DNA from: a virus
Direction: 5' to 3' (one strand)
Virus record (IMG/VR): IMGVR_UViG_3300028920_000083
Span: 1-55,659 of that record
DNA: 55,659 nt
The notes beneath the pieces were generated by a model. The model searched no databases. It saw nothing but the letters and a program-made list of their open reading frames with translations, and was not told the origin of the DNA. The translations under genes and the position numbers were made by a program. Shown here piece after piece: positions 2,546-55,515 of the stretch. Positions within the stretch are counted from its first letter, which is position 1. Each line of letters starts with the position of its first letter.

Positions 2546-2831
2546 GTTCTGGTTCTCCTATATCAAGAGCCACCTTCAACGTCCCCTTTTTATAACCGGG
2601 ACACATACCCTTCTGCCCCGGACAACCACTCCTGATGTGATAATCACAGTTCTCACAACTCTTGGTGCTGTGAAACCGGATTTTAAGATCATACCACTTT
2701 CTAACTGCCTCTGCAAACGGGCCACTTCCCTTGACAAACTTACGCGCGATCTTATATTTCTCCGCCATACTACCCGCGCGCTTAATAAGGGATTTTATAA
2801 TCCGATCCCGTGTTTGTGATTTGATTTCCAT
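2538..2831 (-). CDS. Small Cys-rich protein, possible metal-binding
   Basis: 97 residues from ATG 2829-2831. The C-terminal half has CENCDYH followed by CPGQKGMCPG, five cysteines and a histidine that could bind zinc or an iron-sulfur cluster. Upstream ATGs at 2882 and 2867 are less likely: the first lies in the -10 box of the promoter at 2873-2901 and the second sits on the predicted transcription start, whereas GGAGG stands 11 nt before ATG 2831. Function unknown. Confidence 0.5.
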   Translation of the reverse strand: MEIKSQTRDRIIKSLIKRAGSMAEKYKIARKFVKGSGPFAEAVRKWYDLKIRFHSTKSCENCDYHIRSGCPGQKGMCPGYKKGTLKVALDIGEPERG

Positions 2832-2872
2832 AACGGGCCAATCCTCCGATATTCCGCCGCTTTCCATACTGT

Positions 2873-2901
2873 AGTATATCATACTATGGTGGCCGAGTCA
2901 A
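2873..2901 (-). promoter_or_regulatory. Sigma-70-type promoter
   Basis: On the minus strand TTGACT (2901-2896) and TATACT (2878-2873) are separated by exactly 17 bp, five of six consensus matches in each box. Predicted transcription starts near 2866. It would drive the Cys-rich gene and the genes down to the ligase with host polymerase, inside the larger leftward unit. Confidence 0.65.
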
Positions 2902-2949
2902 TTACAAAATTAAATAAAATTTATAACCGACATTGGCCCCTTATTAAAA

Positions 2950-3420
2950 TCAAATCAGTTTTACTTTAATCCATGCCTCCTTAATTACGAACTGATCGAT
3001 TTTGTAAATCACTCCCATTGGATCATATATTTTCTCACCATCCCACGCTACAGCATGAGGGACTAGACTACCTTCGCGTTGTCCTGTCACTATACCTTCT
3101 TGACCTTCTATCAGATTTAGAAATCGTGCATCGCATTTATGGGCATCCCATATTATCTTCGGTTGTGCCATACCCACTGGTGGCACGTTGCAAGGATATA
3201 AATGTATAGGCATGAGTCCAAGTCCACGACGTATGAAGCAGTCTATAATCTCCTGAATATTGAAGCTACGTATCTGAAAACTCTTGCTAAGTTCGGGCCA
3301 CCATATCTCTTGCCCATCGTGACCGATCTCACGAATCAATATCTCAGGAGGCTCATCAAGTACCATAGCTGCTGAGTAGAGGAGACAGCTATCATTCGGC
3401 TGTTTTAAGAGCTTCATCAT
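2950..3420 (-). CDS. Papain-like (C39-like) peptidase-fold protein
   Basis: 156 residues. The start KQPNDSCLLYSAAMVL places a Cys at the head of a helix as in C39-like and papain-like folds. Near the C-terminus PHAVAWDG and then IYDPMG supply the expected His and Asp/Asn region. It lacks a signal peptide and a cell-wall-binding domain, so I do not call it an endolysin. It could process a phage or host protein or be an inactive relative. It ends 49 nt before the sigma-70 promoter at 2873-2901. Confidence 0.5.
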   Translation of the reverse strand: MMKLLKQPNDSCLLYSAAMVLDEPPEILIREIGHDGQEIWWPELSKSFQIRSFNIQEIIDCFIRRGLGLMPIHLYPCNVPPVGMAQPKIIWDAHKCDARFLNLIEGQEGIVTGQREGSLVPHAVAWDGEKIYDPMGVIYKIDQFVIKEAWIKVKLI

Positions 3421-3625
3421 TTTCTCCTCTAATTATAAGTTTTGATAAAATTTGCTGTGTAAAAGGTACACCAGCTTCGTCTTTACATTCAACACTCTCT
3501 AAAACTCTCTCCACTGAAAATTCGGGTGCCACGCACTTAGGGTCCGAAGCCGGGAACCCATCATATAATGTAAGATACTCTATACTTTGCGTATCAAACC
3601 GAAACCTCGCCTCTATCACTACCAT
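3392..3625 (-). CDS. Small conserved phage protein, unknown function
   Basis: 77 residues from ATG 3623-3625, beginning MVVIEARFRFDTQSIEYLTL. The ARFRFDTxSIEY beginning looks familiar from small phage proteins of unknown role. It overlaps the NYN gene end by 32 nt and the next gene's start by 29 nt. The longer upstream reading (from 3757) lies in the NYN low-complexity tail and is unlikely. No clear Shine-Dalgarno, so coupling is inferred. Confidence 0.5.
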   Translation of the reverse strand: MVVIEARFRFDTQSIEYLTLYDGFPASDPKCVAPEFSVERVLESVECKDEAGVPFTQQILSKLIIRGENDEALKTAE

Positions 3626-4205
3626 CCCGCTCAGGAGTCTCGCTACTAGTTCCGGGTAGTTCTGTATCGTCTCCATCCGTATGAAGAAGTGGCCTAGGTT
3701 CCTTTGTTCCACTAACGCCATCGTCTGGACCCTCCAGTAAGGATTCAGGAATCTCAATAAATTGTCTAGCTATATTTTTGAGATCCCTAGATATACCGCA
3801 AGCAAAGATTACCACATCTACACCACGCTGCTGCGCCCAATCAACAGCCGGAACCAAGTCACCGTCGGCTGTACCTAAGATTATCATATCGAATCTATCA
3901 ATCATATTTACGATGTCAATAGCAATCCCAACATCCCAATCAGCTTTACGCTTGAAGTTAGGTTGATGGCTATAGCTCTTAGGAGTTTTGTATTTAGTAT
4001 GGAAACCTACTTGCTTAAGACAGTATATAAAGTTAGCTGCCTCATTATTAATCTGAGCCCCATAAGCTATAGCTTGTTGAATGTCACCAAGCTCTTTAAT
4101 AAATGCTATGTATTTGGCATAGTCAAGCTTGCGGTCTTGATACTTCTTTGAAATGCAATAGTAAAGATTTGAGACATCTACAAAAACACCAATGCGCTTT
4201 GCCAT
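3594..4205 (-). CDS. NYN/PIN-like domain nuclease
   Basis: 203 residues. The N-terminus RIGVFVDVSNLYY carries the first Asp and Asn of NYN domains, KADWDVGIAIDIV the middle acidic motif, and ILGTADGDLVPAVDWA the final Asp motif; these acidic residues bind metal in the family. NYN proteins are usually RNases or RNA-associated. After residue about 155 the protein becomes a low-complexity acidic tail. ATG 4203-4205 is used because the upstream gene ends at 4207. Its neighbour is a VRR-NUC nuclease. Confidence 0.75.
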   Translation of the reverse strand: MAKRIGVFVDVSNLYYCISKKYQDRKLDYAKYIAFIKELGDIQQAIAYGAQINNEAANFIYCLKQVGFHTKYKTPKSYSHQPNFKRKADWDVGIAIDIVNMIDRFDMIILGTADGDLVPAVDWAQQRGVDVVIFACGISRDLKNIARQFIEIPESLLEGPDDGVSGTKEPRPLLHTDGDDTELPGTSSETPERDGSDRGEVSV

Positions 4206-4569: not shown

Positions 4570-5039
4570 TCATCACCGCCAGTGTCGCTAGACGTATCGC
4601 CTGTATCAGCTTCGCTTGATATGCTTCCTTCCTCCCGTGTATCCTCAGGGCTCTTGCCTCCTCCAGAGCTATCTGAATCGCTCTCTCCAGATAATTCGCG
4701 TCCTCCATCTGAGCTATCACCTTCATTGTTCCCGGTTCCTTCGGGTTGAAGGTCGCTTCCCTCAGGATTTTCCGAATCTTCGTTAGACTTGGCTGCCCGC
4801 AAGGCAGCGTCTTTGGCTCCGATTTCTTCGTCATTGAGTATCCCCTTATCTTTAAGAACCATAATACAAACCGTAAAGTTCCTCATAATTGCGGATAATT
4901 GTCCAAGCTTCTTGGACATTATTTTCAACCGTATATCATGCTCCTCTAATATCCTAATCAGCGGTCCCCACTTCTGCTTTTTTCTTGCTTCCTCCCTTCT
5001 TTGCCTTCGACTTTTTTGATCTTCTCTTGATTTCGGCAT
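4566..5039 (-). CDS. Unknown protein with acidic low-complexity tail
   Basis: 157 residues. Residues 1-25 are very basic (KSRRQRREEARKKQK), residues 26-70 are helical, and from about residue 85 the chain is rich in Ser, Gly, Glu and Asp. The acidic tail is also open in another frame (4559-4726), see findings. It overlaps the next upstream gene by 86 nt. No domain recognised. Confidence 0.5.
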   Translation of the reverse strand: MPKSREDQKSRRQRREEARKKQKWGPLIRILEEHDIRLKIMSKKLGQLSAIMRNFTVCIMVLKDKGILNDEEIGAKDAALRAAKSNEDSENPEGSDLQPEGTGNNEGDSSDGGRELSGESDSDSSGGGKSPEDTREEGSISSEADTGDTSSDTGGDD

Positions 5040-5403
5040 TATACTTACCCTTCTTAAAGAAGTCTGGTCTAGACCTACTAACGATGGCCTTTCTAAATAT
5101 TACCAACCGCTCTTTAAGCATCTTCACTTCACGGTGCTCATCAAAATCTTCACCCCACGCTTTATATCGTGTCCATAGCGTTTCGGGTAGAAGCTTACGA
5201 ACAGCCATAACATCTTTATACTCGGATTCATGAATCCTTTCTAACCACTTATGAGCCTCAATAACCATTTCTGATCTGCAAATCTCAGCATTCTCAGGAA
5301 CCTGTAAATATCCCTCCTTAATATTAGCCTCCTGCAACATCAGCCCCATTTCCACCAACATTATCCTCATCTTCTCTAGTCTCTCTACTTTGCTGTAAGC
5401 CAT
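4954..5403 (-). CDS. Unknown helical protein with basic C-terminus
   Basis: 149 residues, predicted mainly helical, ending in a Lys-rich stretch (KRRSKKSKAKKGGSKKK). It overlaps both neighbours (86 nt downstream, 80 nt upstream), so the four small genes from 4566 to 5921 form a tightly packed, probably translationally coupled block ahead of the DNA polymerase gene. The basic end suggests nucleic-acid contact, which is inference only. Confidence 0.5.
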   Translation of the reverse strand: MAYSKVERLEKMRIMLVEMGLMLQEANIKEGYLQVPENAEICRSEMVIEAHKWLERIHESEYKDVMAVRKLLPETLWTRYKAWGEDFDEHREVKMLKERLVIFRKAIVSRSRPDFFKKGKYNAEIKRRSKKSKAKKGGSKKKAEVGTAD

Positions 5404-5725: not shown

Positions 5726-5921
5726 CTTCCATGTCCTTTTCTAGTTGTTTGCGTTGTCGTTCCATTAAAAGAACAGCAACCCGCAAATCCTCAGTAAAAC
5801 AATTTAAGGCTGTCTCTTTGAACAGTGCCTCCTCAGCCGATAGTTTTTTAGATGTTGATTTAACAATCAGGTTGTTAGTCATGGCTCGGTAACTAATCAT
5901 TTTTATCTCATGTTCATTCAT
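5661..5921 (-). CDS. Small helical protein of unknown function
   Basis: 86 residues with a central charged helix (TEDLRVAVLLMERQRKQLEKDME) and a Gly/Ser-rich end. Start ATG 5919-5921 overlaps the polymerase stop codon (TAA 5921-5923) by one base, so translation is probably coupled to the polymerase gene upstream. Confidence 0.5.
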   Translation of the reverse strand: MNEHEIKMISYRAMTNNLIVKSTSKKLSAEEALFKETALNCFTEDLRVAVLLMERQRKQLEKDMEDGTFDQIAGGGSQQGSSITEP

Positions 5922-8227
5922 TATTTATCCGCCCAAGATTTAAGCTTATCACTCCAATCAATAGCGATAAGGGGGACTTTCGCTTTTAATCTTTCTACAA
6001 GTGCATCAACTTTTTCTTTTATCAGTGGCACTACCTCCTTTAATGCTGGACACTCTATTTCATCATGGACATTAAGAGGAATAACTCGCCAACGATTTAT
6101 TCCTTCTGGTTGCAATTCCCAAATATCATTTTGCAGCATCTTTGTTATCTCTGCACCCGATGATTGTATCTCATGATTAGCTGCTGCCCTCATGTTAGCA
6201 GCTTGCATAGCAAAGGCCGCAGCAAATAATGCAGACCTACACGCTCCCGAAGCAGACTGTACTCTATCTCGTCGTACCACATTGATCTTGATTTGCTGCC
6301 AGTGCTTTGGAGGATCTTCTGCAAGTGTAAATAAAGTTTTACAAATTTGATTTTCAAGTGTAAAGTAACGTTTGAATCCAAATATTGATTCAACGTAATC
6401 TGCTGGCTCATGCCATTCTACTTTTGTTCCTATACCACCGGGCTGACGCATTGAGCAAAACTTATCAAACGTTTCTTTACGACGCATACCCCAAACTTTA
6501 TATTTATTAATCCAAGCTTGATAAGCTACATTAGCAGCTTCTTCTGTGATTCCTACTCTAGTCTGTAGGGTATAGGCTTCACCGCCATACAACATGGCGA
6601 ATACACCATTCTTAGATCTAATATATTTGTCAGCTTCATCAGGTAATCCTGATGTAGCAAGTATCTCATCATAAGCCATACCGGGGAATAAGAACATTCC
6701 AAATAGACCATGTATCTTTTTACCACTTAATAGATCGATTCTAAGATCAGGATCACCATATACCGCATCAGCTAAAACAACTTCAAAACCTGCAAAATCG
6801 CCACCACACAAAATATAATCAGGGTCAGCGAGTAGAAAACAAGCCCGGACTTCTTTTGTCCTTTTGATACCTTGTGCATTAAGGTCGTCCCCTCCAGACA
6901 TCCTTGAAGAACGAGTGCCAATAACATTGAAACTAGCATGAAAACGACCTGCCCTAATAAGCTTGTCATAAAGTTCTATTTCTTTCTGCGCGTGTCTTGC
7001 CGCTAAAATATCCTGTGCCCTAAGTGCAGCAGGATGAGGTTCACCTGATTCTAGTAATCCTTCACGACAATTATTACAACCCATACCCTCACACTTAGGG
7101 CAGATATCTTCTTTATTCCATCTGGATACCTCCTCCAATATTGGGGCTTTAGTAGTTATCTTCCCACCCACGCGCATCGTGAGTTTTTCTGTTTCACTCA
7201 TCACTTCTTCAAGATACTTACGACAAACGGCAGGTGAATTAAAATTAAACTCGAATTGATGTAACTTCTCCTCAGACTTAACTCTAAGATTTTTTAATCC
7301 TTCTACATCTATTCTGAAACCATGCCATCTAACTGCACCAACCATACAAGCTAGTATACTATCAATATCATCTGGTTCAGGCTTCTTGAAATATTCATAA
7401 AGCATCCGAGTATACTTCACATCATCACTTGCATACGCTCGCGCCAACGAATTGTATGTCCAATGTGATGCGTGCATATGCACAACGTCTGGCCATGCCC
7501 CGCGCCAATTGCCGGGTTCACCAATAGCTAATGCAAAAGGTGCGTAACCCAATTCAACAGGCATAGCCTTGGGCGGTGGCTCAACATCTGCGAACAATTT
7601 TATAGACTCGGTTTCGATACCAAGTGCATCTTGAGCTAGAGCTTTAAGCGCACTTGATGGCGCAAACTTAAGAACAACATCCTTGAATTCAGGCTCAACA
7701 TCCCCGAAGTCATCATGGCGATCTTGAACCTGCCATCTTACTGACTTATCCTTGCGACGGGCAAAATAGACATCATTAAGAGGGATTCTAGAATCAAGCT
7801 CACGGGCTAGTTCCCAAGCTAAAGCTGTTGGAACCTTTTTAATACGGATGTCGTTACGGTCCATTGTAGACTGGTATGGACCTTTACGAGCATGAAGCAT
7901 TAAGTCAAGTGCATGAGCCGGTTTCAGGCATGGTCCCCATCTAGCTTTATCCTCAGCCAGTGCATATTCTTCAATACAATCTATAGGATGCCTACGTGGG
8001 TCTGGTAGACTAATAAGTGTAGTATAAGTTTGACAAAGATGGAACCAATCAAAAGCTAAATTAAAACCACAAATGCCTTCTTCGACAAATGCCTCAATCA
8101 ACTCAATTGTTTCAGAGATTGGAGAATGCCACACAGAATGCAGAATGATTTCGCCATCATCCTGCGCGTACTGTATTAGTACGGTAGGGCCGTGCAAGCC
8201 ACAAGTTTCTGTGTCTACAAAATACAC
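5921..8227 (-). CDS. Family A DNA polymerase with 3'-5' exonuclease domain
   Basis: Replicative polymerase of about 768 residues. The N-terminus has a DnaQ-type exonuclease start (YFVDTETCGL). Family A polymerase motifs follow: motif A GGDFAGFE near residue 470, motif B KNGVFAMLYGG near 540, and motif C VHDEIECP near 720. A CPKCEGMGCNNC zinc-like motif lies in the middle. I prefer GTG 8225-8227 over TTG 8254: GTG shares a base with the stop of the micro-gene upstream (TAGTG) and has GGAG 9 nt before it. It lies in the leftward replication unit. Confidence 0.9.
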   Translation of the reverse strand: MYFVDTETCGLHGPTVLIQYAQDDGEIILHSVWHSPISETIELIEAFVEEGICGFNLAFDWFHLCQTYTTLISLPDPRRHPIDCIEEYALAEDKARWGPCLKPAHALDLMLHARKGPYQSTMDRNDIRIKKVPTALAWELARELDSRIPLNDVYFARRKDKSVRWQVQDRHDDFGDVEPEFKDVVLKFAPSSALKALAQDALGIETESIKLFADVEPPPKAMPVELGYAPFALAIGEPGNWRGAWPDVVHMHASHWTYNSLARAYASDDVKYTRMLYEYFKKPEPDDIDSILACMVGAVRWHGFRIDVEGLKNLRVKSEEKLHQFEFNFNSPAVCRKYLEEVMSETEKLTMRVGGKITTKAPILEEVSRWNKEDICPKCEGMGCNNCREGLLESGEPHPAALRAQDILAARHAQKEIELYDKLIRAGRFHASFNVIGTRSSRMSGGDDLNAQGIKRTKEVRACFLLADPDYILCGGDFAGFEVVLADAVYGDPDLRIDLLSGKKIHGLFGMFLFPGMAYDEILATSGLPDEADKYIRSKNGVFAMLYGGEAYTLQTRVGITEEAANVAYQAWINKYKVWGMRRKETFDKFCSMRQPGGIGTKVEWHEPADYVESIFGFKRYFTLENQICKTLFTLAEDPPKHWQQIKINVVRRDRVQSASGACRSALFAAAFAMQAANMRAAANHEIQSSGAEITKMLQNDIWELQPEGINRWRVIPLNVHDEIECPALKEVVPLIKEKVDALVERLKAKVPLIAIDWSDKLKSWADK

Positions 8228-8412: not shown

Positions 8413-8544
8413 TCACTCCGCCATTAATTGTTGTATATCATAAGCAATATCACAAGCACATTCGTAACAAACTTTTTGAGGCCAGTAATTAGTTTCTACT
8501 AACCCACTTACCCACTCTCTACAGTGTGGGCACCTTATCTTCAT
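8413..8544 (-). CDS. 43-residue zinc-ribbon micro-protein
   Basis: Starts MKIRCPHC, with a second pair CYEC about 20 residues on, giving a CxxC...CxxC ribbon, followed by an acidic helix. Start ATG 8542-8544 lies inside the end of the ParB-like gene; an upstream in-frame start at 8634 is possible but would overlap more. No strong Shine-Dalgarno, so coupling is assumed. Confidence 0.45.
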   Translation of the reverse strand: MKIRCPHCREWVSGLVETNYWPQKVCYECACDIAYDIQQLMAE

Positions 8545-9385
8545 CCTTAATAGGATTAGTATAACTAAGCCCATTTTCCGCAGCATATTCTTCAAGCGTC
8601 TGATGAAGTTCCACATTACTAATCTCCCCGGCACACCAAGCTAAACAGCGTGTACCTATATGATTGCCCATTTGAGTTTGAATATAATCCATCATCTCAA
8701 AGATTTCACTGCGCTTTCTGTGGTGCTTAGAGCTAGGCTTAGTAGCATTTGGATTAACTGTCATGGCTTTACGGCCAGAGATTTTAGCATCCTTCAACTT
8801 ACGTGCTGCCTCAAAACAAGACTCTTTACCAGCCGTATTATTGATAGCGAATAGCTCACGGATATTAGCCTGCGTGATAAAACCTGCTGCACACTCGTCC
8901 TGAATCTCTTGAGGCAGAGCCAAAAGCATATACCGAATTTGTACCCAACCTCTTGACATCCCGAGACGTTCGGCTGTAGCCCCCTCAGAGACACCTAAAT
9001 CCTTGAGTCTTTTAATAGCCTTAGCTTCCTGAACAATATTCAAATCCTTACGCTTGATATTTTCAGACAGATTAAAGAATCTGGCTACTGTCTCATCCAT
9101 CATATCAGGACGTATGATCGCTGGAATATGTGTACGCTTAAGCACTTTATGAGACATGAACCTACGATAACCCGCCACCAGTCGATACTTGTAACCAGTT
9201 TCTTTTGCTTGTTCTTCGTCGTAAGGTGCTATTGTTACAGGTTGTATAAGGCCGTTAGCCTCAATATCTTTAGCCAAATCAACAACATCGATTGGTGCAA
9301 TCTTTCCTCGACAATTGAATTCCTCATCCATATGGATGAGTTCAAGTGCCACACTTTGATACTCCCCCATTTCTTGCTTACTCAT
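8519..9385 (-). CDS. ParB/Spo0J-like protein 1
   Basis: 288 residues. Residues 10-100 form a ParB-type N-terminal domain: FNCRGKI, IEANGLIQPVTIAPY, YRLVAGYRRF (the GxRR box that binds CTP in ParB), then NLSENIKRKDLNIVQEAKA. A helix-turn-helix follows (GATAERLGMSRGWVQIRYMLL). Such phage proteins may partition DNA, regulate transcription or act as nucleases. It is one of three paralogues here and starts 2 nt after the helicase gene ends. Confidence 0.8.
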   Translation of the reverse strand: MSKQEMGEYQSVALELIHMDEEFNCRGKIAPIDVVDLAKDIEANGLIQPVTIAPYDEEQAKETGYKYRLVAGYRRFMSHKVLKRTHIPAIIRPDMMDETVARFFNLSENIKRKDLNIVQEAKAIKRLKDLGVSEGATAERLGMSRGWVQIRYMLLALPQEIQDECAAGFITQANIRELFAINNTAGKESCFEAARKLKDAKISGRKAMTVNPNATKPSSKHHRKRSEIFEMMDYIQTQMGNHIGTRCLAWCAGEISNVELHQTLEEYAAENGLSYTNPIKDEDKVPTL

Positions 9386-9386: not shown

Positions 9387-11348
9387 TTAATATACCCTTT
9401 CTTCTGCGTTATCCATTTGCTCCAAAATATCTCCCAACTCTCCCATACTAATACTTTGTAACTTCTTTTTCTTTTTGAGATTATCCAGCACTAACTTATC
9501 GGTAGCTAGATGTATGATGTCCTTAATCGTCGCTCCGCGATTCTCATCCATACCCATACGGTGGATACGATCCTCAGCCTGCATACGTGCTTCACCATTG
9601 AAACAATTAGAATAAAACAAGGCAGTGGGTGAAGCTGTCAAATTTAAAGCCATACCACCAGCCTGTGGGTGTCCTACGACGCAGAGTTTGGGATACGTCT
9701 CAAGCAACTCGTTATATCTCGGATGGGTTCTATCCATCGCAATAAGGAGTTCTTCGTCACTAATAGACTCTCCTGTTGCAGCTTGTCCAATAAATCCGCG
9801 TCCATCAATACGCAGAGTCGCCCATCCATATTTATGGCAAACGTCAACAAGTCTATCAATTGTTCCTGTGAATCCTCCCCAAACGACGTAACGACCGCAA
9901 TCTTCATGCATGTCAAGTTCGTCGATAAGGACTTGATCTTTAGGAGACTCAACTGCATCAGTTGCACGTCTGTATCGCTTAACTTTGCCAACCCCGCCAC
10001 AGGTATCACAATGTATTTCACGGATTTCGAAATCTTGCTCTCCAACATTTTGAGGAGCCATGATGTCAATATCTCGTGTAGAAACTCGGACTTTCGATTT
10101 TCCGGTTCCATTACACTGCGGGCAGATATCTTCTCCGATAACTTCGTCGGTATATTGAAAACCGTCTGACAACTCTCTAAGCAAAGTGAGAGCTTCAATG
10201 GCTCTCGCGGACTTTTTCTTAATAATTCTAGCTGCACGAAGCATGTCGGGGGTAGGCTTGACTCGGATAAGTTCATATTGCTTATCGGGGAGGTCGAGAC
10301 AATTTTTCTTAAATTTAACCAGTACAAGGCCCTTCATCCTCCTATAAAGACGGGCAACCTCATTCTCAGATTTTTCAAATCTGTGGCCTTCATTCATCAC
10401 CACAGACATTTCTTCATGGTTTAAATGTTCTTTTGGTTGACCACAAATTCTACATTTATTCTCATCATCAAGCCATGTAACAACATGTGGATAGACACCC
10501 CCGGTAATACTTTGACGTTCTTCAATAAGACAGAGACGCGATTTAAACTTGTTAACTTGACCTTCGCGGAGGAACCCCGGACAGGCAACTTCACATTGAT
10601 GCCACCAATCAGTAGGAGCCTTTGGAGCCGGGGTTCCACTCATCTCTAAGATTATACCATCATAACCATATTCCTCACGGAGAGCATCAGCAACATGCAT
10701 AGCTGCTTGTGACCGCTGTGCTGTCGGTGTTTTTATTTTACTTGACTCATCTAATATAATGATTTTAGGAGCAGGATCACCATCGGCCCATGCCTTGACA
10801 CGGGTAACTAGACCCTCATAAGTGAACATCACAGGTCGTACTTTAGAGTTCCATTTATCTAATTCTAGAGACACGGCACGGATACCAGAACGCGGACCAA
10901 CATACCATGCCTCATGATCTTCTAATCCTAAACGCTCCATAGCTTCAATAGCTACAAGCGTCTTACCAGTGCCCATTTCACCTGCTATGATACCGTGTCG
11001 TATAGTCATAATAAACGATAACATCTCTCCTTGATGTATACGTAAAGGACGCTCAAATTGAATATCAGGAATTTCTTGATCGTACCAAGCATAAGGATTA
11101 TTACCTTGGAGATATTCAAGCTGAAAATGATTACGTGAACTGTTTGCTATTGACCATATCTTACGAGGCGGATCATCGAATCCATGCCACTTAGCACCCT
11201 GCATTGACTTGATTTCATCAATCAATGTTTTATTGTATTTGAACTTAACAAAGATTCTGCTACCCTTATAAATAAGGGTAACAGGCTTTAGATACTTACC
11301 TGCGCGTACCTTTATATGCTGTTCACCTTCTTTCACTTTCCACCCCAC
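9387..11348 (-). CDS. SNF2-type SF2 helicase/translocase with zinc insertion
   Basis: 653 residues. A short N-terminal region resembles HARP-type substrate recognition (WHGFDDPPRKIWSI). Walker A GEMGTGKT lies near residue 122, motif II reads ILDESSK, motif III SGTPAP, and C-terminal motif VI QAEDRIHRMGM. Between the motor lobes two DnaJ-like zinc knuckles occur, CPQCNGTGK and CDTCGGVGK. Probable role is remodelling or annealing DNA at replication forks. Overlaps the upstream gene by 16 nt. Confidence 0.85.
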   Translation of the reverse strand: MGWKVKEGEQHIKVRAGKYLKPVTLIYKGSRIFVKFKYNKTLIDEIKSMQGAKWHGFDDPPRKIWSIANSSRNHFQLEYLQGNNPYAWYDQEIPDIQFERPLRIHQGEMLSFIMTIRHGIIAGEMGTGKTLVAIEAMERLGLEDHEAWYVGPRSGIRAVSLELDKWNSKVRPVMFTYEGLVTRVKAWADGDPAPKIIILDESSKIKTPTAQRSQAAMHVADALREEYGYDGIILEMSGTPAPKAPTDWWHQCEVACPGFLREGQVNKFKSRLCLIEERQSITGGVYPHVVTWLDDENKCRICGQPKEHLNHEEMSVVMNEGHRFEKSENEVARLYRRMKGLVLVKFKKNCLDLPDKQYELIRVKPTPDMLRAARIIKKKSARAIEALTLLRELSDGFQYTDEVIGEDICPQCNGTGKSKVRVSTRDIDIMAPQNVGEQDFEIREIHCDTCGGVGKVKRYRRATDAVESPKDQVLIDELDMHEDCGRYVVWGGFTGTIDRLVDVCHKYGWATLRIDGRGFIGQAATGESISDEELLIAMDRTHPRYNELLETYPKLCVVGHPQAGGMALNLTASPTALFYSNCFNGEARMQAEDRIHRMGMDENRGATIKDIIHLATDKLVLDNLKKKKKLQSISMGELGDILEQMDNAEERVY

Positions 11349-11857
11349 AATATGAATGTACCATCTTCTAATTCACGCTCGGAGAATGATGTCCACAATT
11401 CTCGATAGCCTGTTTGTCTAAAAAAGTTATAACACTTATTCATTACTTTACGCGCCGCTTTAGGAGCTACTTCTCTACACCCACGTAAAATAGCTTGATA
11501 CCATTGTGCCATGTTACCAGATACAATTGCAAGACATTCATCATGGTCATAAAAACGATCATAGATTTCTAAATCAAAATTATAGTAAAGAGAGTCAAGA
11601 CCGCGTTTATCTAATACCACAAGAAAGGAGAACGTGACATGCCGGAATGTAAAGTTTCTAGTGAACCCATGCCGAAGATTTAGAAGTGGTTCGTTATCCA
11701 TAGGCAGACACCCAAGGAATGAAGCCGGATCTTTCGGCTGCATACCTTGATTGTCTAATCCGCGAGTAGGACTATATCCAAGATGTTCTTGACATACCTT
11801 GATAAAGGTAGCCCAATCAGGGTGAGTGTATGCAAGTGGTACGATTTTATAATCCAC
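11333..11857 (-). CDS. Unknown protein, possible degenerate ThyX-like fold
   Basis: 174 residues from GTG 11855-11857, which has GGAG 8 nt upstream; GTG 11893 lacks a site. The order of features recalls flavin-dependent thymidylate synthase: an opening strand YKIVPLAYTHPDW, a central FRHVTFSFLVVLDKRGLDSLYY, and a helix with IVSGNMAQWYQAIL. The RHRxxS signature is missing, so if related it is unlikely to bind FAD and dUMP normally. The assignment is tentative. Confidence 0.35.
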   Translation of the reverse strand: MDYKIVPLAYTHPDWATFIKVCQEHLGYSPTRGLDNQGMQPKDPASFLGCLPMDNEPLLNLRHGFTRNFTFRHVTFSFLVVLDKRGLDSLYYNFDLEIYDRFYDHDECLAIVSGNMAQWYQAILRGCREVAPKAARKVMNKCYNFFRQTGYRELWTSFSERELEDGTFILWGGK

Positions 11858-11937
11858 AACTCTATCTCCAAATATAGGGAGAGTGGGAACCACTGTGGCG
11901 AATCAGTGGCCCCACTCCCCCACTTGGCTGCTATACC

Positions 11938-13716: not shown

Positions 13717-13807
13717 TGTAATGATTCCCCAAAATCAGACCTGAATGATTTCCCAAATCAAATCCCGTTGCATGATTTGATTTCACATGGGGCACCCCCT
13801 TTCGCAT
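13709..13807 (-). CDS. 32-residue leader peptide ahead of ParB 2
   Basis: ATG 13805-13807 has GGAG 8 nt upstream and lies about 30 nt downstream of the predicted transcription start. The stop overlaps the ParB 2 start (ATGGGTAA), typical of translational coupling. The peptide starts MRKGVPHVK and has no clear domain. It spans repeated GATTTGATT sequence, which could instead be the conserved element. Confidence 0.4.
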   Translation of the reverse strand: MRKGVPHVKSNHATGFDLGNHSGLILGNHYNG

Positions 13808-16793: not shown

Positions 16794-16992
16794 AGACATT
16801 TTGGATAAGCTACCTGAGGAACAGCGTAAGCAACTCATGCACGCTTTTGAGCATGAGTTTGCTCAATACGTTGAATTACCTGATGGTAAATTCATCGGTG
16901 TTAATGTAACACCGGTTAAGCATTTAAAGATTCGAGAATCAGCAGGTAATTGGCATTATGGTGATGTTATGAAAGGTACAAAGGATGAGTGA
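16786..16992 (+). CDS. Small unknown protein
   Basis: 68 residues from ATG 16786-16788, inside the end of the primase gene. Charged helical N-terminus (IKDILDKLPEEQRKQLMHAF) followed by a short beta-like part. No family recognised. It overlaps the next gene by 8 nt, so it is part of a coupled series. Confidence 0.5.
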   Translation: MIKDILDKLPEEQRKQLMHAFEHEFAQYVELPDGKFIGVNVTPVKHLKIRESAGNWHYGDVMKGTKDE

Positions 16993-45837: not shown

Positions 45838-47470
45838 GGATATCCTCCGATCTTGCAAGACCAACAGCTAATTGTATGGCTAACTCCGCGTATGTTCGGG
45901 CATGAGCGAAGTGATCCTCCTCATTCCCTGTTACATACTTACCCACCGGATTGCCCAATATATCCTTAGAGTAGATACGAACAAGAGCCTTAAGATGTTC
46001 TTTGTACTCATGGGATAAGTCTTTTGGAAGGATCATCTTCTCACGTCTAAATCTACTTAAGGCTAGGTCAATCCAAGATGTTCGATCCACAGACATCGTA
46101 TGCTCTTCTTCGGCATGTATATGTATAGCCTTACTATTAATCCCGGTGCCATAGAAACAAAGCTTAACATGGCCCCAAAAGCGTTGTGCAAATTCCAGAG
46201 CTTTACGCCGCTCCGGGTTAGCGTCGATAACCGCGAAGGCTACACCGTATTGCTGGATCAGATAATCAAGTTCCTCGAAGTGTTGTACTTTACCCTCAGT
46301 CAACAACCGAGTAGTTGTTGCTAAATTAATATCGTTAGTCGAAGTTTCACGGTCAATAAAGACCTGATCAATCTCATAATGCAGCCATTTGCCAACGTCA
46401 ATACCCATAACAACCATACCTTGGCCTGTACTAGTCTTAACATGAGTACCAGTACATTTCTCAATATCTGCATCTGTAATACGTGCGCCTTCTACTATAT
46501 GTGTTAAGCCAAGCTTAGAGTTATAAAACTCTTGCTCATCAGTAGGGTTACTCTGAGCCTTCAAATAGAGTGTTGCAATTTCATAAGGCTTCACGGTCAT
46601 GGAGTAAAGTTGATTAATATGATAACCTTCTATTAGTCTGTCAGTATGACCACGTACCCATCGTGCATTACGGAGCCAATCGATTTTAGAATCATGCTCC
46701 AACTTATGGTCACATTCTTTACACTTAAGATGAGTATCAAGAATAGCGATATCATCAGGATCATCACCGATTATGACAAGACACTCAGGGAATACTAGCT
46801 CAGTCAGCCTGTTACAGTGTGGACACCGGAAGAAGAAATGACTTTGAGAGGATTTCTTGAAATACTGATTGATGCCAAAATTATCAATAGTAGGTGTTGA
46901 CAACGCAAGAGCTTGCTTCTCAAGCTGACCACTAGTTCTCTCAAGAGCCAAGCTTATATTGTCCTGCATCATCTCGTCAAGCTCATCAAAAACTATGAGC
47001 CCGACTGGTACAGACTTAAGCTGACTCCGTGACCTACTCCCGCGTATATATAGATTCGCGTGACCCGCGCGCTTATGGTGAATATTCTTGACATCCGTGA
47101 ACAGTGTTTCTAGATGTGGAGAACCTTCAAGAGCAGGATCGAAACGTGCTGTAGAGAAGTCTGTAGCGTCAGGATTATTAGCTGGTAGCACATAGAGGAC
47201 GCTGATACCATCTATGTCGATAGCCTTAAACGTCTTATTAAGTGCCCACTCAGTGAAGCCCATCTGAGCAGCCTTTTGACCGACCACCATTTCAGCATCT
47301 GCATCATGCATCTCGCGCGTCCACGGGTGATGATCAAAAGTCCATGGACCGGGGAACGGCGCACCCATGACACGATACATCTCTGCCCATCGTGAGCAGG
47401 ATGTCGCAGTCTTACGGCGTAAGCCGTCAGAGACTCGTTGGGTGAGCATCTCTATCAAACCCGTTCCCAT
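45824..47470 (-). CDS. Large terminase subunit, GpA-like
   Basis: 548 residues. ATPase part: VVGQKAAQMGFTEWALN at the P-loop position (the usual Lys before the Thr is replaced by Phe, an upstream Lys may serve), VFDELDEM as Walker B, then a STPT coupling motif. A zinc insert CPHC...CKEC follows. The nuclease has GIDVGKW, VIDANPERRKALEFA and EDHFAHARTYAELA. It packages DNA into heads. The gene overlaps the portal start. Confidence 0.85.
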   Translation of the reverse strand: MGTGLIEMLTQRVSDGLRRKTATSCSRWAEMYRVMGAPFPGPWTFDHHPWTREMHDADAEMVVGQKAAQMGFTEWALNKTFKAIDIDGISVLYVLPANNPDATDFSTARFDPALEGSPHLETLFTDVKNIHHKRAGHANLYIRGSRSRSQLKSVPVGLIVFDELDEMMQDNISLALERTSGQLEKQALALSTPTIDNFGINQYFKKSSQSHFFFRCPHCNRLTELVFPECLVIIGDDPDDIAILDTHLKCKECDHKLEHDSKIDWLRNARWVRGHTDRLIEGYHINQLYSMTVKPYEIATLYLKAQSNPTDEQEFYNSKLGLTHIVEGARITDADIEKCTGTHVKTSTGQGMVVMGIDVGKWLHYEIDQVFIDRETSTNDINLATTTRLLTEGKVQHFEELDYLIQQYGVAFAVIDANPERRKALEFAQRFWGHVKLCFYGTGINSKAIHIHAEEEHTMSVDRTSWIDLALSRFRREKMILPKDLSHEYKEHLKALVRIYSKDILGNPVGKYVTGNEEDHFAHARTYAELAIQLAVGLARSEDIRGVV

Positions 47471-47488: not shown

Positions 47489-47749
47489 CTAGACCACTGT
47501 AACTACAATCACGTCTGACCCGTCGCCCTTGAGCCAAAGATTCTTGGTACTAAACGCAGGCAGGGCAACATTCTTACCCGGAGACACGTAACCGCCCATA
47601 TCACTATTACCGCCGTGCTCAAAATTAATGTCATTAGTATTGGTTTCTGGACCTTGTAATAGGATTCCAGAATCCACATGTCTTTTCTGACTACCTAACA
47701 ACTCATAAAGAGTTGTAGGCGTCGTTGTTGGTGTAATCGTTCTAGTCAT
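47489..47749 (-). CDS. Unknown small protein between terminase genes
   Basis: 86 residues, Thr-rich start (MTRTITPTTTPTTLYELL), then HVDSGILLQGPETNTNDI and a Gly-rich VSPGKNVALPAFS. It overlaps the small terminase gene by 8 nt. No identified domain; perhaps a small structural protein. Confidence 0.45.
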   Translation of the reverse strand: MTRTITPTTTPTTLYELLGSQKRHVDSGILLQGPETNTNDINFEHGGNSDMGGYVSPGKNVALPAFSTKNLWLKGDGSDVIVVTVV

Positions 47750-48296
47750 CTTTACCTATCCTCCCTACAATCTCCAGTATCCCTGTACTGATTTGGTCAA
47801 TCTTCTCTGGCTCATCCAGATGCTCGGTTATCACAGTGATAACCTCATTAGCAAACTGGAGTATTGCTTGCTTATCAAGAAGCTGACCAAGAGAACCCTC
47901 AAGCTTGTGACAAGAATTAACAACCTTATCAATCTTCATCACAAGGTCAGAGATAGGACCGGATTGTAAAATCAGGTCAAGCTCTGTGGAGCAATGCTCA
48001 AGACGCTCCTGCATCAGCATTCTTAAAATCGCTATCTCATCCCGGAGGCTTTTCACGTCCGGGGCATCTCTATGCTGGTCAAGTTTTGCTTGCCACTTTG
48101 TCAACACATAGTTTCTCATGGCTTCTCGATTCCGCCTTTTTATGGCGTGCGCGCCGCCGTGGCAAATACAATAATCCGAGCCATCGACAGCTTTATTCAT
48201 ACACTGCCCATATTGCGTGTTGGTAGCCTGACACCTTCTAGGGTCATCCTCAGCTACCTTAATGATTTTGCGATCCTCTTCACCCACTGTGTTCAC
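47742..48296 (-). CDS. Probable small terminase subunit with Cys-His motif
   Basis: 184 residues. N-terminal RCQATNTQYGQCMNKAVDG followed by YCICHGG gives four Cys and a His that could bind zinc, a start found in phage proteins next to large terminases. A long coiled-coil helix follows. Assigned by position as the DNA-recognition subunit and first gene of the late operon. Its promoter lies 48 nt upstream. Confidence 0.55.
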   Translation of the reverse strand: MNTVGEEDRKIIKVAEDDPRRCQATNTQYGQCMNKAVDGSDYCICHGGAHAIKRRNREAMRNYVLTKWQAKLDQHRDAPDVKSLRDEIAILRMLMQERLEHCSTELDLILQSGPISDLVMKIDKVVNSCHKLEGSLGQLLDKQAILQFANEVITVITEHLDEPEKIDQISTGILEIVGRIGKDD

Positions 48297-48372: not shown

Positions 48373-48649
48373 TAAAAATTTTAGAAATTTTTTGACGCCC
48401 TACCGTGTACAGTGCCATGATTTTACAATCATGAGTTGTGATTTTACCCACCCTGTAGGGTGTATAGCATATAGCGTCTTGTGTCAAGCGTCGGGATTCT
48501 GTGATTTTGCAGATCTGATACAATGGGGAGGGGGTAGCAAATTTTATGCCATATACCATCTTATTATAGATTTTAAACCCACCCGGTATTTTTATACTCC
48601 TTTATACTATTCTCATAGATTTATTGACATTATTAACAGTTTGGCATAG

Positions 48650-50913: not shown

Positions 50914-51092
50914 GCCTTAGACACTAAAATGCCGAGACGGGCGTTAATGTCCAATTTGGCGAGTCTAAGGCCCCGGGCGGTTGACACCATAAGAACCAGC
51001 CGCCCATGATTCGGGAATCCTGCAGCCTCAGAGTAGGTGGTGGTTGCCGGAATGCCGGCCATGAATGGATCACCAGCAGGATTCCCGAATCA
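50914..51092. ncRNA. Array of hairpins, candidate ncRNA or replication structure
   Basis: Three consecutive foldbacks: GCCTTAGAC (50914-50922) with GTCTAAGGC (50963-50971); GGGCGG (50975-50980) with CCGCCC (51000-51005), extended by GGTT/AACC; and a perfect 17-bp arm pair 51007-51023 with 51076-51092, holding an inner GCCGG-AATG-CCGGC (51046-51059). No convincing coding frame. Could be a stable RNA, a processed 3' end, or a single-strand origin. Confidence 0.4.
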
Positions 51093-51606
51093 ATGCTAGG
51101 CCAAAGGGAGATCCCTATATTATATTATATCTAGTTACTTGTATGATATTAAAACCCAATGGGACACAGCACCGGTCTGCCTGCACACAATGCAGGATTT
51201 TAGAATCCGCTGCCAGAGTCTTGCTGCCTGCTGCTTGACAAATGCCGCTAGATGCTTGCAGTTTTTGCATGAAAATCTAGGCATGATAAACGATTTTGAG
51301 TGATTTTAACATCAAATCTCTCAGTGTCTGCAGCCCGCTTGAAAATGCCTTTTGTTACTTGATTCTAAAATCCGTTGCAGGCTGCAACATGCTTTACACC
51401 CAATGCTTGATCACGTTTAGGCGTCAACTTTATTCCCAATGCCAATGCCGAATATTATACCTTTAACTGCTTACTAACTTACTATTTATATATTCTATAA
51501 TCTAAATAAAATATAGAGTATATAAATATATATAATGAATATTTTTCCTGCATTTCAGTAAGCTGCAAGGCTCCCAACTACAACTAAATCCGCCCAAATA
51601 CCGCGA
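51093..51606. other. Convergent intergenic region with AT-rich tract
   Basis: About 510 bp with no supported gene, between converging units. It has four of the GATT dyads nearby (51080, 51196, 51361, 51653), repeated CTGC/GCAG words near 51185-51260 and 51370-51385, a foldback with CTAGAT and ATCTAG arms near 51250-51283, and an almost pure A/T stretch at about 51476-51545. An origin or multiple terminators are possible. Confidence 0.4.
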
Positions 51607-51969
51607 TCATTCCCCTCTAGTATCAATGCCCTTCTTCTGCCAAGCTCCCTCGGATTTCAGAATCTCCTCAACATGCTTCAATGCCTCCCACCACTTGCCA
51701 AAATAATGCCCGCGGGCCATCATATAACTGATTCTCAACATCCGAGTCTTGTTCACGGGGTGTATATACCCCGGTAATTCCTCATACGTCACAATCAATG
51801 TATATTCTACTAGATGCGGTTTAACCTGAAAGGCATGTTGCTCCGTACTACCATTGAAGAATGGTATTATCAATGCTTGTTTCCCGATTCTGTATCTTAT
51901 GTTCTTACTACTAAGCTCTGCTGCAAATGACTTAAGCTCTCTGTGCAAGCTCTTCAATGATTTAGACAT
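51607..51969 (-). CDS. Unknown protein, related to next upstream gene
   Basis: 120 residues, beginning MSKSLKSLHRELKSFAAEL, with WWEALKHVEEILKSEGAW near the end. The next gene shows the same plan (MSKLKLLKTMLK ... WWDQATNALIAIVLILKKQNAW), so the two are probable tandem duplicates. Function unknown. Last gene of its unit; overlaps its neighbour by 8 nt. Confidence 0.5.
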   Translation of the reverse strand: MSKSLKSLHRELKSFAAELSSKNIRYRIGKQALIIPFFNGSTEQHAFQVKPHLVEYTLIVTYEELPGYIHPVNKTRMLRISYMMARGHYFGKWWEALKHVEEILKSEGAWQKKGIDTRGE

Positions 51970-52231: not shown

Positions 52232-52439
52232 GGTCTTTTTCATCCTTAATAGCATACCACCACGCATAACTAGCAAATCCCGCCACTAGCCACATGGATA
52301 TATAGATAGACCACATGCCTACCCTATCCCCGGTATCCCAATTGGTATCAGTATAAATCTCCATAGCTATAATGCCTTGCGTCAATACCACAAGACTCCA
52401 GAAGATAGCTGCCAGATTCTTGAATCCCTTTTTATTCAT
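52224..52439 (-). CDS. Two-pass small membrane protein
   Basis: 71 residues with two hydrophobic segments (AAIFWSLVVLTQGIIAM and WSIYISMWLVAGFASYAWWY) joined by a polar loop. A charged tail (KDEKDHE) ends it. No family recognised. Could act on the host membrane, for example in superinfection control. Confidence 0.5.
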   Translation of the reverse strand: MNKKGFKNLAAIFWSLVVLTQGIIAMEIYTDTNWDTGDRVGMWSIYISMWLVAGFASYAWWYAIKDEKDHE

Positions 52440-52707: not shown

Positions 52708-53215
52708 TTTTTAGCTCCAATATTTGATTCCAGATTTGACTTGCTCTGGATTCTGAGAATCCCATTACAATACCTACTTCTCTAAGTGTATATCCTTCAT
52801 ATATATAAAGCTCCACTATACGACGTTCTTGCCTAGTGAGCCCTCTTAAGACTTTTTCCACTTGTTCTGCATCTTCAATCTGCTGGAACCTTGAGTCAAT
52901 AAAACTAAGCTGCTGATATATATCTATACCCTCCTCTGGTTTCAAGTGTACTTGCTCATGGATTTCAAAATCCGGGTTATCTCTATGCTTCTTTCTATCA
53001 ATACGGGCAACCCAATCCTCATGTCTCATATAATCACGCATACATCCATCAATACGTATTGACGCATACTTCCAGAAGCCTTGATACAGTGGTACATAAT
53101 GCTTGGCTGCATCTATCAAGCCCATGATACATATACTCTCAGCATCATCACCAAGTAAAGGCATCTTTTGTACCCATCTTCTACCCTTAGCCTTAGCCCT
53201 CTCCAAAAACTCCAT
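52700..53215 (-). CDS. Second sigma-70-like factor (regions 2-3 and 4)
   Basis: 171 residues from ATG 53213-53215. DDAESICIMGLIDAAKHY and FWKYASIRIDGCMRDYMRHE follow the region 2-3 pattern of FliA/SigF-like factors (GLIDA ... Y-x-IR-GxMxDxxR), and TRQERRIVELYIYEGYTLRE then FSESRASQIW form the region 4 helix-turn-helix. A longer frame to 53545 overlaps the zinc-ribbon gene and is probably not translated. It may give phage-specific promoter choice. Confidence 0.65.
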   Translation of the reverse strand: MEFLERAKAKGRRWVQKMPLLGDDAESICIMGLIDAAKHYVPLYQGFWKYASIRIDGCMRDYMRHEDWVARIDRKKHRDNPDFEIHEQVHLKPEEGIDIYQQLSFIDSRFQQIEDAEQVEKVLRGLTRQERRIVELYIYEGYTLREVGIVMGFSESRASQIWNQILELKNV

Positions 53216-53571: not shown

Positions 53572-53980
53572 AAGCCTCGCCTTCCGGTCGGACTATCTCA
53601 ATCGGTATAGCCTTATCCCAATCATAGAACTTACCAGATCCATCATAGATATCATGCAGGAGTTGACAGATAACCCCAAGCGTGTAAGGATTAAGCTTCA
53701 TATTAAGCTTATCCTCAATATAACCCGGAGTCACGGTTATCGGCTCACAGTCTACAATCAGTGACCATCCAACTTGTGGCATAGCAATTGCTAAACTGCC
53801 ACCACATTGTATCAGCAAGAACTCGTAATGCGTAGCGTCACCCGGCTCTAACACCACTAACACATTACCCTCGGATTCCATAATCCGCTTGAGACATTCC
53901 ACAAAATTACTGATACTCTCATAGAAAACATCAAGACAGAATCGTGGTCTACGCCGGTAGTATGAGATCGTCCTAATCAT
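53549..53980 (-). CDS. Unknown protein
   Basis: 143 residues from ATG 53978-53980, overlapping the previous stop (ATGATTAG). Opens MIRTISYYRRRPRFCLDVF and continues FVECLKRIMESEGNVLVVLE, an alpha/beta start. Ends in an acidic GEACDGEGQG. No family recognised. Confidence 0.45.
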   Translation of the reverse strand: MIRTISYYRRRPRFCLDVFYESISNFVECLKRIMESEGNVLVVLEPGDATHYEFLLIQCGGSLAIAMPQVGWSLIVDCEPITVTPGYIEDKLNMKLNPYTLGVICQLLHDIYDGSGKFYDWDKAIPIEIVRPEGEACDGEGQG

Positions 53981-54341
53981 AATACACACACTCCTTATCT
54001 GGCCTCTCGTCAAAGACGCCCTTGTGATCCATCACCAATTCAGCCGGTGGTACACGCAGCTTTACCCATACGTTATAGGAGTCCTTGAACTTTTTCCCGA
54101 AGATCCTACCTCCGCATGGCCTCAGGTTGCCCGCCGGCTCTATCGGGCATCCCCGTTTCCTGAAATGTGATTCAACAATCCTGTATTTTACCCTTGCTGA
54201 TCCGATGCTTTTAGCTGCTATCACAAGCTCTATAGGATCATCATCGTCATAGCATATGAACCATGTCATGTCCATGCCTAAAGTTGGATGGCTATACCAT
54301 TTGCCATCACTACACTTGACGTAGACTCCTACTTTAGACAT
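53973..54341 (-). CDS. Unknown protein, basic
   Basis: 122 residues from ATG 54339-54341, 4 nt after GGGAGG; the GTG codon just before it is too close to the site. KVGVYVKCSDGKWYSHPTL and FRKRGCPIEPAGNLRPCGGR are the visible features, with a beta-rich feel and paired cysteines. No function assigned. Confidence 0.45.
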   Translation of the reverse strand: MSKVGVYVKCSDGKWYSHPTLGMDMTWFICYDDDDPIELVIAAKSIGSARVKYRIVESHFRKRGCPIEPAGNLRPCGGRIFGKKFKDSYNVWVKLRVPPAELVMDHKGVFDERPDKECVYYD

Positions 54342-54456
54342 CACTCCTCCCTACCATAAGGCGTCTCCATCGTAGCCAGCCTCATACAAATCCCCGTATA
54401 TATCGTCATACTCCCCTTCGTAATCCTCCTCATTCAACCAATCGAACCACTCGATG

Positions 54457-54544
54457 TGGTGCCGGGGATGGGAGTCGAACCCACATAGCCTCTTGAGGCC
54501 ACCGGATTTTAAGTCCGGTGCGTATGCCTTTCCGCCACCCCGGC
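54457..54544 (-). tRNA. tRNA-Leu (UAA anticodon) with encoded CCA
   Basis: Acceptor arms GCCGGGG (54544-54538) and CCCCGGC (54467-54461), then A and CCA (54457-54459). Anticodon stem CCGGA/TCCGG with loop CTTAAAA, anticodon TAA. A long variable arm with GCCTC/AGGC marks a class II (Leu) tRNA, and the T loop reads TTCGACT. It could aid translation of UUA codons. Confidence 0.95.
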
Positions 54545-54550
54545 CCTGTG

Positions 54551-54754
54551 TCATTCCTCAACCTCCGGCTCAGGATTCACACCTTCCGGTGTCACCTTAA
54601 ATAGCTTATAGCCATCAGATGTGAAATACTGGAACCTCTCCTTAACCTTCTCCTGTACACGTGCCCTGAATACTGCGTCATTACTCTTGCAAGCATCATC
54701 AAGAGTATCAATATCATCAATAATCTGCCATAGCCTATGTTCAGTTTTAGTCAT
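54551..54754 (-). CDS. Small helical phage protein
   Basis: 67 residues: HRLWQIIDDIDTLDDACKSN at the start and FQYFTSDGYKLFKV at the end, with an acidic tail. I recognise this kind of small protein from other phages without a known role. Start overlaps the PGDYG gene stop by 4 nt and it lies directly upstream of the tRNA. Confidence 0.55.
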   Translation of the reverse strand: MTKTEHRLWQIIDDIDTLDDACKSNDAVFRARVQEKVKERFQYFTSDGYKLFKVTPEGVNPEPEVEE

Positions 54755-55515
54755 CCTACCTCCCCGAACTCTATAGCCTTAACAATACTATGCATGTTGA
54801 GTCTAAAGTCCTTATCAGATTCCTCTTTATCTTCGGAGTGCTTCTTCATATCAGACACAAGATTCTGGTAATCATGTGCCTGTCTCTCGATTATCCGAAT
54901 CGCTGCATCACAAGCATGTTCACCCTTTTCTACAGAGGCACAAGATGTAAGAAAGTTAACTAGCCTTTCAACTTTGCGTCCATCATTTAGTAAATCACAA
55001 AGTCTTTGTGCATCCTTTTCAGTGCGACATTTAGCAACATCACTAAGACCTTGGCCAGCGCCATAGCTTTTGACGTAAGACTCAGGAAAATCATATCTTT
55101 CAACTATCTTGTTACCTACAACCTCAAAGCCTACCTCACCTTGTGGCTTCTCCAGTAGCCTCTGAGTAGTAGGCATGGAGTCAGGCACCGGCTCGCCTTC
55201 CTCGGGCAACCCTAGTTCAGCATATGTAGCATCAGCAATTTCACCTGTCTTATACTCAGGTTCATAAGTCTCAGCAAAGATGTCAGGCTTACAAGAATAC
55301 AACTCACCTTTGACGCCACGGATTACGTAATCACCCGGCATAACCTCCATCACACCTTCAAGAGTCTCTATACACCAAGCCCATTTCTTTAAGTTCCCTG
55401 CACCTGTTGGTATTTCCTTAAAAATTATACCTTCAGGTGGCTGCCAGTCACCATCCTCAGGTGGATTAAACTGCACAGCCTCAATCACAACAGGTTTCTT
55501 CCTGTATTTAGGCAT
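54751..55515 (-). CDS. PGDYG-domain phage protein
   Basis: 254 residues. The N-terminal 90 residues (KYRKKPVVIEAVQFNPPEDG, then WCIETLEGVMEVMPGDYVIR and LYSCKPDIFAETYEP) are the classic PGDYG layout, frequent in phages and of unknown function. The rest is unique and helical; the C-terminal 80 residues contain RLCDLLNDGRKVERLVNFL. ATG 55513-55515 overlaps the previous gene's end. Confidence 0.7.
   Translation of the reverse strand: MPKYRKKPVVIEAVQFNPPEDGDWQPPEGIIFKEIPTGAGNLKKWAWCIETLEGVMEVMPGDYVIRGVKGELYSCKPDIFAETYEPEYKTGEIADATYAELGLPEEGEPVPDSMPTTQRLLEKPQGEVGFEVVGNKIVERYDFPESYVKSYGAGQGLSDVAKCRTEKDAQRLCDLLNDGRKVERLVNFLTSCASVEKGEHACDAAIRIIERQAHDYQNLVSDMKKHSEDKEESDKDFRLNMHSIVKAIEFGEVG

Follow-up and report, generated by a model that had tools for sequence, protein, structure and literature searches.

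The window analysed here, a virus record of 55,659 bases (IMGVR_UViG_3300028920_000083) whose genes include a siphovirus-type tape measure protein, a portal, a terminase and a major head protein, carries 80 copies of a short dyad in which GATT is followed after four or five bases by AATC (the N4 and N5 forms), or about one copy per 0.7 kb (more than one per kb). With a probability of about 0.58, we propose that these dyads are the phage's own loading sites, comparable to parS or to Noc-binding sites (NBS), for ParB1, a ParB-family protein encoded in the window that would form a cytidine triphosphate (CTP)-dependent clamp and coat the whole genome. The replication and regulation genes of the window comprise a DNA polymerase, a helicase, a primase, two sigma factors, a Dam-type methylase and two clear ParB-like proteins. 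None of the isolated phages in INPHARED is close to the window phage, all terminase matches lying below 60% identity.

A dispersed dyad in excess at two spacings

Exact counts of GATT-Nk-AATC for k = 0–12 are 2, 0, 0, 1, 52, 28, 3, 0, 6, 5, 3, 1 and 2, and GATT-N4-AATC is the most enriched of all pairs of 4-mers at gaps of 0–30 (52 against 2.5 expected). Dinucleotide shuffles do not reproduce the excess (200 runs; mean 1.6 per spacing, maxima of 6 for N4 and 7 for N5), nor do synonymous-codon shuffles (300 runs; means of 6.9 and 7.0, maxima of 14 and 13); as the latter account for at most 14 of the 52 N4 sites, an effect of codon or amino-acid usage was rejected as the cause of the dyads. The sequence-only reading from which this work started had counted 49 N4 and 22 N5 cases; the excess is real and larger than claimed. 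Its list of start positions was nearly right, although two needed correction (5858 to 5857 and 23218 to 23208) and it lacked N4 sites at 2361, 52415 and 54169 and N5 sites at 7047, 9290, 11211, 22663, 43432 and 47790. It had also taken some dyads for copies of a repeated module; within 38729–43660 the pairs 39759/41697 and 39923/41864 do have similar flanks, and a few of the dyads there may be copies of one another, but 49 N4 and 26 N5 sites remain when only dyads more than 100 bp apart are counted.

Inside the dyad, the bases next to the half-sites prefer a pyrimidine and a purine, respectively (Y..R; C 39% and T 35% when symmetrised), a preference that had been noticed by eye, and C is depleted immediately before GATT. 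Among single changes in the half-site only AATC to GATC or to CATC is enriched (for the N4 variants, 20 against 2.9 expected and 19 against 4.5 expected), the preference at the fourth base being T>C>G and never A, and because only these fourth-base changes are tolerated, the core is GAT-N6/7-ATC. The dyads are symmetric, have no orientation relative to transcription, and occur in both coding and non-coding DNA, as had been stated, with the 4 of 80 that are intergenic matching the chance level; there is no clear preference for gene starts or stops. A role as promoter or terminator elements was rejected because the dyads are neither biased towards intergenic DNA nor close to gene starts, and a ParABS centromere because they are not clustered. 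The inverted repeat with its 4–5 nt loop could in principle be a short hairpin of single-stranded DNA or RNA, selected for its fold, as was originally suggested. Yet other 4-bp stems with a loop of four, those without GATT, number 277 against ~236 expected, so that GATT alone is enriched; the identity of the GAT bases is strict; and the CTCTA-N-TAGAG dyads of relatives described below have a 1-bp centre and cannot fold with the conserved centre paired, all of which makes a hairpin exceedingly improbable.

Variant dyads and site conservation in related phages

A terminase search of IMG/VR yielded 22 related contigs (44–63% identity), which searches with the methylase and ParB1 extended to 110 contig groups, with dyads called in these relatives at a Poisson p <1e-8. 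In complete records of the terminase relatives the GATT-type dyad is present in many copies in some and absent from others, and a search free of GATT revealed that many of the relatives without it carry another dispersed dyad. About 40 of the 110 contig groups hold a dispersed dyad, with tens of copies per genome. The classes comprise GATT with N3, N4 or N5, GATG-N4, GATA-N5 and TGAT-N6/GATC-N4, as well as TGATTTA-N-TAAATCA, GAGTTA-N-TAACTC, TGAGTT-N2 and CTCTA-N-TAGAG; aligned on their centres, most are variants of a (T)GATTTA or (T)GAGTTA half-site with the G at 5.5, 6 or 6.5 bp from the centre. The excess thus recurs in relatives, shifted in sequence and spacing. At the same threshold no dyad was detected in 15 unrelated phage contigs found through distant methylases, and the isolated phages Milano, Schnabeltier and Kiko, which have other ParB proteins, contain no such dyads.

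Dyad spacing is more regular than random in 25 of the 31 contigs examined (combined z of -6.1 over all 31). When relatives that share a dyad are aligned, identity is 85.5% at its eight specified bases, 74.7% in the spacer and 73.7% in the flanks. Half-sites within dyads are fully intact in 64% of cases, and identical 4-mers elsewhere in 36.5% (Fisher 1e-89, although related pairs enter this test as if independent and the value is not to be taken literally). Of the 701 site pairs, about 195 belong to a mixed, GC-rich group whose motif is doubtful, and if these are left out ~54% of full dyads are intact. Given this conservation and even spacing, the sites look functional and maintained, mostly within coding sequence, and selection on them would be strong enough to shape codon choice genome-wide.

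One phage, G016 (L047–L049), has 64 CTCTA-N-TAGAG dyads in 50 kb and differs from all others tested in that these CTCTANTAGAG dyads are enriched between genes (18 of 64 against 3.9 expected). This partial exception to chance-level placement bears on the idea that a phage repressor bound at many dispersed sites silences transcription, as in mycobacteriophage L5 or with KorB. Such an arrangement would account for dozens of dispersed sites per genome and for a lineage-specific specificity like that of immunity groups, and KorB, itself a clamp of the ParB family, acts as a repressor too (PMC11790492). The stoperators of cluster A mycobacteriophages are likewise many dispersed sites for a phage-encoded protein with evolving specificity, but they are asymmetric 13-mers, bound by monomers, intergenic and oriented with transcription (PMC9283540), whereas the dyads of the window are symmetric, unoriented, intragenic at chance level and away from gene starts, number ~80 per genome, and have a candidate reader that is unrelated. 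As the scan of window proteins turned up no cI-like repressor either, we regard stoperator-like repression as improbable.

Some early dyad candidates in relatives were discarded as local tandem repeats. In three contigs (L007, L016 and L026), GTAC, GGCC and CTTAA recur with strong periodicity at fixed spacings, but the signal disappears once neighbouring copies are scored as one, which marks these repeats as local tandem arrays. L388, an unrelated phage with a canonical ParB, has at 16400–17620 eight closely packed, almost identical units of 38 bp with TGATTNNNNAATCA; these are likely promoter or regulatory repeats, and L388 was dropped as a dyad phage since its promoter-like array is local rather than dispersed.

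Candidate reader proteins

The two ParB-like genes of the window belong to a cassette with the order ParB1-helicase-ThyX-like-OB-ParB2-primase (OB, oligonucleotide/oligosaccharide-binding; Table 1), the presence of which was scored in 28 dyad phages whose sequence includes the region and in 14 phages without dyads. ParB1, the helicase, ParB2 and the proteins starting at 11333 and 11938 are present in 28/28 and 14/14, respectively, and the primase in 28/28 and 12/14. The protein encoded at 11333–11893, universal in the clade, is modelled with confidence by AlphaFold, and the fold nearest to the model is that of the flavin-dependent thymidylate synthase ThyX (~12% identity); judged from this model, it is a very divergent ThyX adjoining the helicase. 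This fold removes it as a reader, and as the protein at 11938 offers weak OB-fold matches only and was rejected as well, two ParB-like proteins are left as candidates from the cassette.

The Dam-type methylase, which had been proposed as an alternative reader, would instead take the dyads as its target or signal. Dam-family enzymes typically read GATC, the core of the dyad is GAT, and the gene occurs in all six of the most complete GAT-dyad genomes. However, a homologue was not found in 7 of the 28 dyad phages, including the GAT-type L006, L146 and L167 and the non-GAT G016 and L145, while 6 of the 14 dyad-less phages have one, and methylases do not normally enrich their own sites 20-fold as dyads. 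We therefore give the methylase very little weight.

ParB1 has the features of a canonical ParB/Noc-type protein: PF02195 and PF17762 score above cutoff, TIGR00180 scores 75.9 against a cutoff of 58.45, and the G, R and R of GxRR and the E, N and R of ENxxR are invariant in 61/61 homologues; an intact CTP-clamp protein is present in every dyad phage tested. Its nearest solved relatives are Noc, Spo0J and ParB. To relate proteins to sites, the identity of protein regions was compared with dyad similarity over 351 pairs, with partial correlations controlling for the helicase, the primase and the 11938 protein. The ParB1 recognition helix gave both the highest correlation (rho 0.43) and the highest partial correlation (0.29, permutation P 0.002).

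A possible point of contact is suggested by the known specificity switch between ParB and Noc, in which R173 of Caulobacter ParB contacts guanine 1 of parS and Noc instead uses Q to contact adenine 1 (PMC7383237). The equivalent residue in the ParB1 of the window is R145, and the window half-site starts with G. The sole dyad phage with Q at this position is G016, where base 1 is A in 50% and T in 36% of cases, which parallels the known change from R to Q and from G1 to A1. Across phages, R goes with G1 in a ratio of 24:1 and other residues in a ratio of 7:5 (P 0.009). The association is suggestive only: out-of-sample contigs, with the artefact L388 omitted, gave 4:1 for R and 3:0 for non-R and so did not strengthen it, making it a lead rather than proof.

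Several further observations weigh, as does this one, against ParB1. Four phages (G003, L141, L087 and L102) have a ParB1 with the same helix and no dyad; the distance from the GAT half-site to the dyad centre is ~1 bp shorter than that of GTTTC in parS; and N178, a conserved DNA-contacting residue, is I or V in ParB1. A per-column covariation scan of ParB1, ParB2 and the helicase favoured no protein and was uninformative, and since ParB1 and ParB2 always occur together, presence cannot tell the two apart.

ParB2 might read the dyads, either by itself or in partnership with ParB1, supplying the site specificity. It has an HTH_ParB domain, accompanies all 28 of the dyad phages tested, and its whole helix-turn-helix (HTH) region tracks the dyad sequence (partial correlation 0.23, P 0.04), which also counts against ParB1. 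Its recognition helix, however, correlates weakly (0.10, P 0.18), the residue that matches R173 of ParB shows no pattern with base 1, and DGLHR takes the place of GxRR in its nucleotide box, so that we consider ParB2 unlikely, if the least unlikely of the alternatives, to be what reads the dyads. ParB2 is universal in the clade beside the canonical ParB, with a conserved DGLHR box and an N..K..ET motif replacing GxRR and ENxxR, and in view of these noncanonical boxes it may bind a different nucleotide. A third protein (49778–50848, +) has a weak ParB_N match (E 1.5e-4) and no ParB HTH match.

A model for coating of the phage genome

A flexible dimer site with a ParB-like reader was among the initial suggestions and is the best-supported reading. 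We envisage that a ParB1 dimer would read two GAT(T/C) half-sites through its HTH domains, with GATTCNNGAATC as the predicted target duplex. The relaxed centre and the 1-bp tolerance fit two flexibly linked DNA-binding domains, which would accept a centre of either 4 or 5 bp. CTP binding would then close ParB1 into a clamp that slides onto flanking DNA, and with ~80 evenly spaced sites the clamp could coat the entire genome whichever part of it replicates. Coating might compact or organise the phage genome or mark it as self; segregation, protection or packaging are also conceivable. It is tempting to speculate, more tentatively than for the loading sites themselves, that a large phage clade wraps its genomes in a CTP-loaded ParB-type clamp, a 'phage chromatin' seeded from regularly spaced loading sites that are maintained within coding sequence, and that sites and reader specificity change together such that each phage coats its own DNA only, to the benefit of self-recognition, protection or segregation in co-infection.

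Phage ParB proteins are common and mostly lack an assigned function, and what CTP switches do beyond chromosome segregation is a current question. The system described here points to a ParB/Noc-type clamp, instead of a single centromere, as a possible means of organising a phage genome, and with ~40 contigs that each use a half-site and spacing of their own, simple binding assays should suffice to test ParB specificity and how it evolves.

Comparison with known ParB-family systems

Dispersed sites for a ParB-family protein on a mobile replicon are familiar from the phage-plasmid N15, with its dispersed centromeres; the sites number about four in N15 and about 12 for KorB, far fewer than here, and lie at promoters or replication functions, whereas the dyads are found in nearly every gene. 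KorB of RK2 similarly acts at several dispersed operators on a mobile replicon (PMC11790492).

The closest parallel is perhaps the Noc-NBS system of Bacillus (PMC8429893, PMC7383237), in which palindromic sites scattered genome-wide are read by a ParB-family CTP clamp with an HTH, the kind of protein that is the candidate here, and Noc structures are the closest solved relatives of ParB1. The differences are nevertheless considerable. The present system is phage-encoded, its dyads are far denser than NBS on a bacterial chromosome, and its half-site is GATTY, as opposed to ATTTCCC for NBS, in a dyad whose sequence varies among related phages. The Noc specificity residues (Q at the R173 position and K/R at 179 and 201) are not matched by ParB1, which has R, R and A. 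The N-terminal amphipathic helix that targets Noc to the membrane is also missing: position 7 of the ParB1 profile aligns to Noc residue 27, so that ParB1 starts at the core domain, which speaks against Noc-like anchoring to the membrane by this means.

With ParABS there are likenesses in the CTP motifs, in the HTH and in the similar half-site (TG-TT-C) of parS, TGTTTCACGTGAAACA. The (T)GATTY half-site resembles TGTTTCAC of parS, and the dyad is palindromic, but its centre is relaxed and unspecified and its spacing variable, at 4 or 5 bp, in comparison with the ~16-bp parS. Furthermore, the dyads are distributed genome-wide, more evenly than random, and not at one locus near an origin or parAB, and scans of the window proteins with PHROGs and Pfam, which covered most but not all small open reading frames, recognised no ParA ATPase. 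Among open-licence papers we found nothing equivalent on a phage ParB with dispersed or genome-wide sites; phage proteins feature in a 2025 survey of the ParB fold, the consulted passages of which do not describe such sites (PMC12704722).

Table 1. Positions of the dyads and of the cassette and candidate reader genes in the window.
Feature	Position	Strand	Remarks
ParB1	8519..9385	-	ParB_N + HTH_ParB; CTP motifs GYRR and NLSENIKRKDLN; recognition helix GMSRGWVQIR; proposed dyad reader
DNA helicase	9387..11348	-	universal cassette member
ThyX-fold protein	11333..11893	-	cassette; fold not DNA-binding
Possible OB-fold/SSB-like protein	11938..12645	-	cassette; weak fold matches only
ParB2	12742..13716	-	second ParB-like protein, with HTH_ParB and a DGLHR box; might read the dyads instead of ParB1 or as its partner
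Primase	14094..16793	+	cassette member
Dam-family D12 adenine methylase	17521..18393	+	rejected as reader
N4 dyad GATTCGTAAATC	2361..2372	unstranded	
N4 dyad GATTCATGAATC	5225..5236	unstranded	perfect palindrome
N4 dyad	9070..9081	unstranded	inside ParB1 gene
N4 dyads	2791..2802, 3114..3125, 3742..3753, 5857..5868, 7288..7299, 7784..7795	unstranded	
N4 dyads	10023..10034, 11564..11575, 11749..11760, 11843..11854, 14122..14133, 14325..14336, 14525..14536	unstranded	
N4 dyads	16188..16199, 16929..16940, 17845..17856, 21249..21260, 22075..22086, 22834..22845, 23208..23219	unstranded	
N4 dyads	24339..24350, 24522..24533, 25940..25951, 27278..27289, 28210..28221, 29444..29455, 33217..33228, 35994..36005	unstranded	
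N4 dyads	39759..39770, 39863..39874, 39923..39934, 40865..40876, 41697..41708, 41864..41875, 45046..45057	unstranded	
N4 dyads	46682..46693, 47663..47674, 47962..47973, 48419..48430, 51008..51019, 51080..51091, 51196..51207	unstranded	
N4 dyads	51361..51372, 51653..51664, 52415..52426, 52961..52972, 53874..53885, 54169..54180, 55321..55332	unstranded	
N5 dyad	9290..9302	unstranded	inside ParB1 gene
N5 dyads	13477..13489, 13681..13693	unstranded	inside ParB2 gene
N5 dyads	144..156, 1543..1555, 2998..3010, 4766..4778, 7047..7059, 10369..10381, 11211..11223, 13747..13759	unstranded	
N5 dyads	17863..17875, 18079..18091, 19113..19125, 20477..20489, 22663..22675, 27923..27935, 30388..30400, 30679..30691	unstranded	
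N5 dyads	31102..31114, 33814..33826, 37867..37879, 38722..38734, 43432..43444, 47790..47802, 52749..52761, 54861..54873, 54889..54901	unstranded	

Host range and other features

A distant cousin of the window phage is present as a prophage at 208–254 kb of the 290-kb Planctomycetota contig CAUJHS010000076.1 (L213, L293–L299). It is collinear with the window, with genes for a ligase, a polymerase, ParB1, a helicase, ParB2, a primase, tail, capsid, portal and terminase, and it has no detectable dyads. A collinear prophage in a Planctomycetota genome indicates that the wider clade infects Planctomycetota. Another record, L210 (CAKLQH020000011.1), is labelled Acinetobacter phage MD-2021a and has rpsA, glcB, parAB and surA in the 50 kb read; as these are ordinary bacterial chromosome genes, the record appears to be mislabelled.

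In the window itself, the early region encodes small proteins on the minus strand with a cREC receiver domain (1093–1500), an NYN nuclease domain (3594–4283) and a Rho_N domain (5324–5725).

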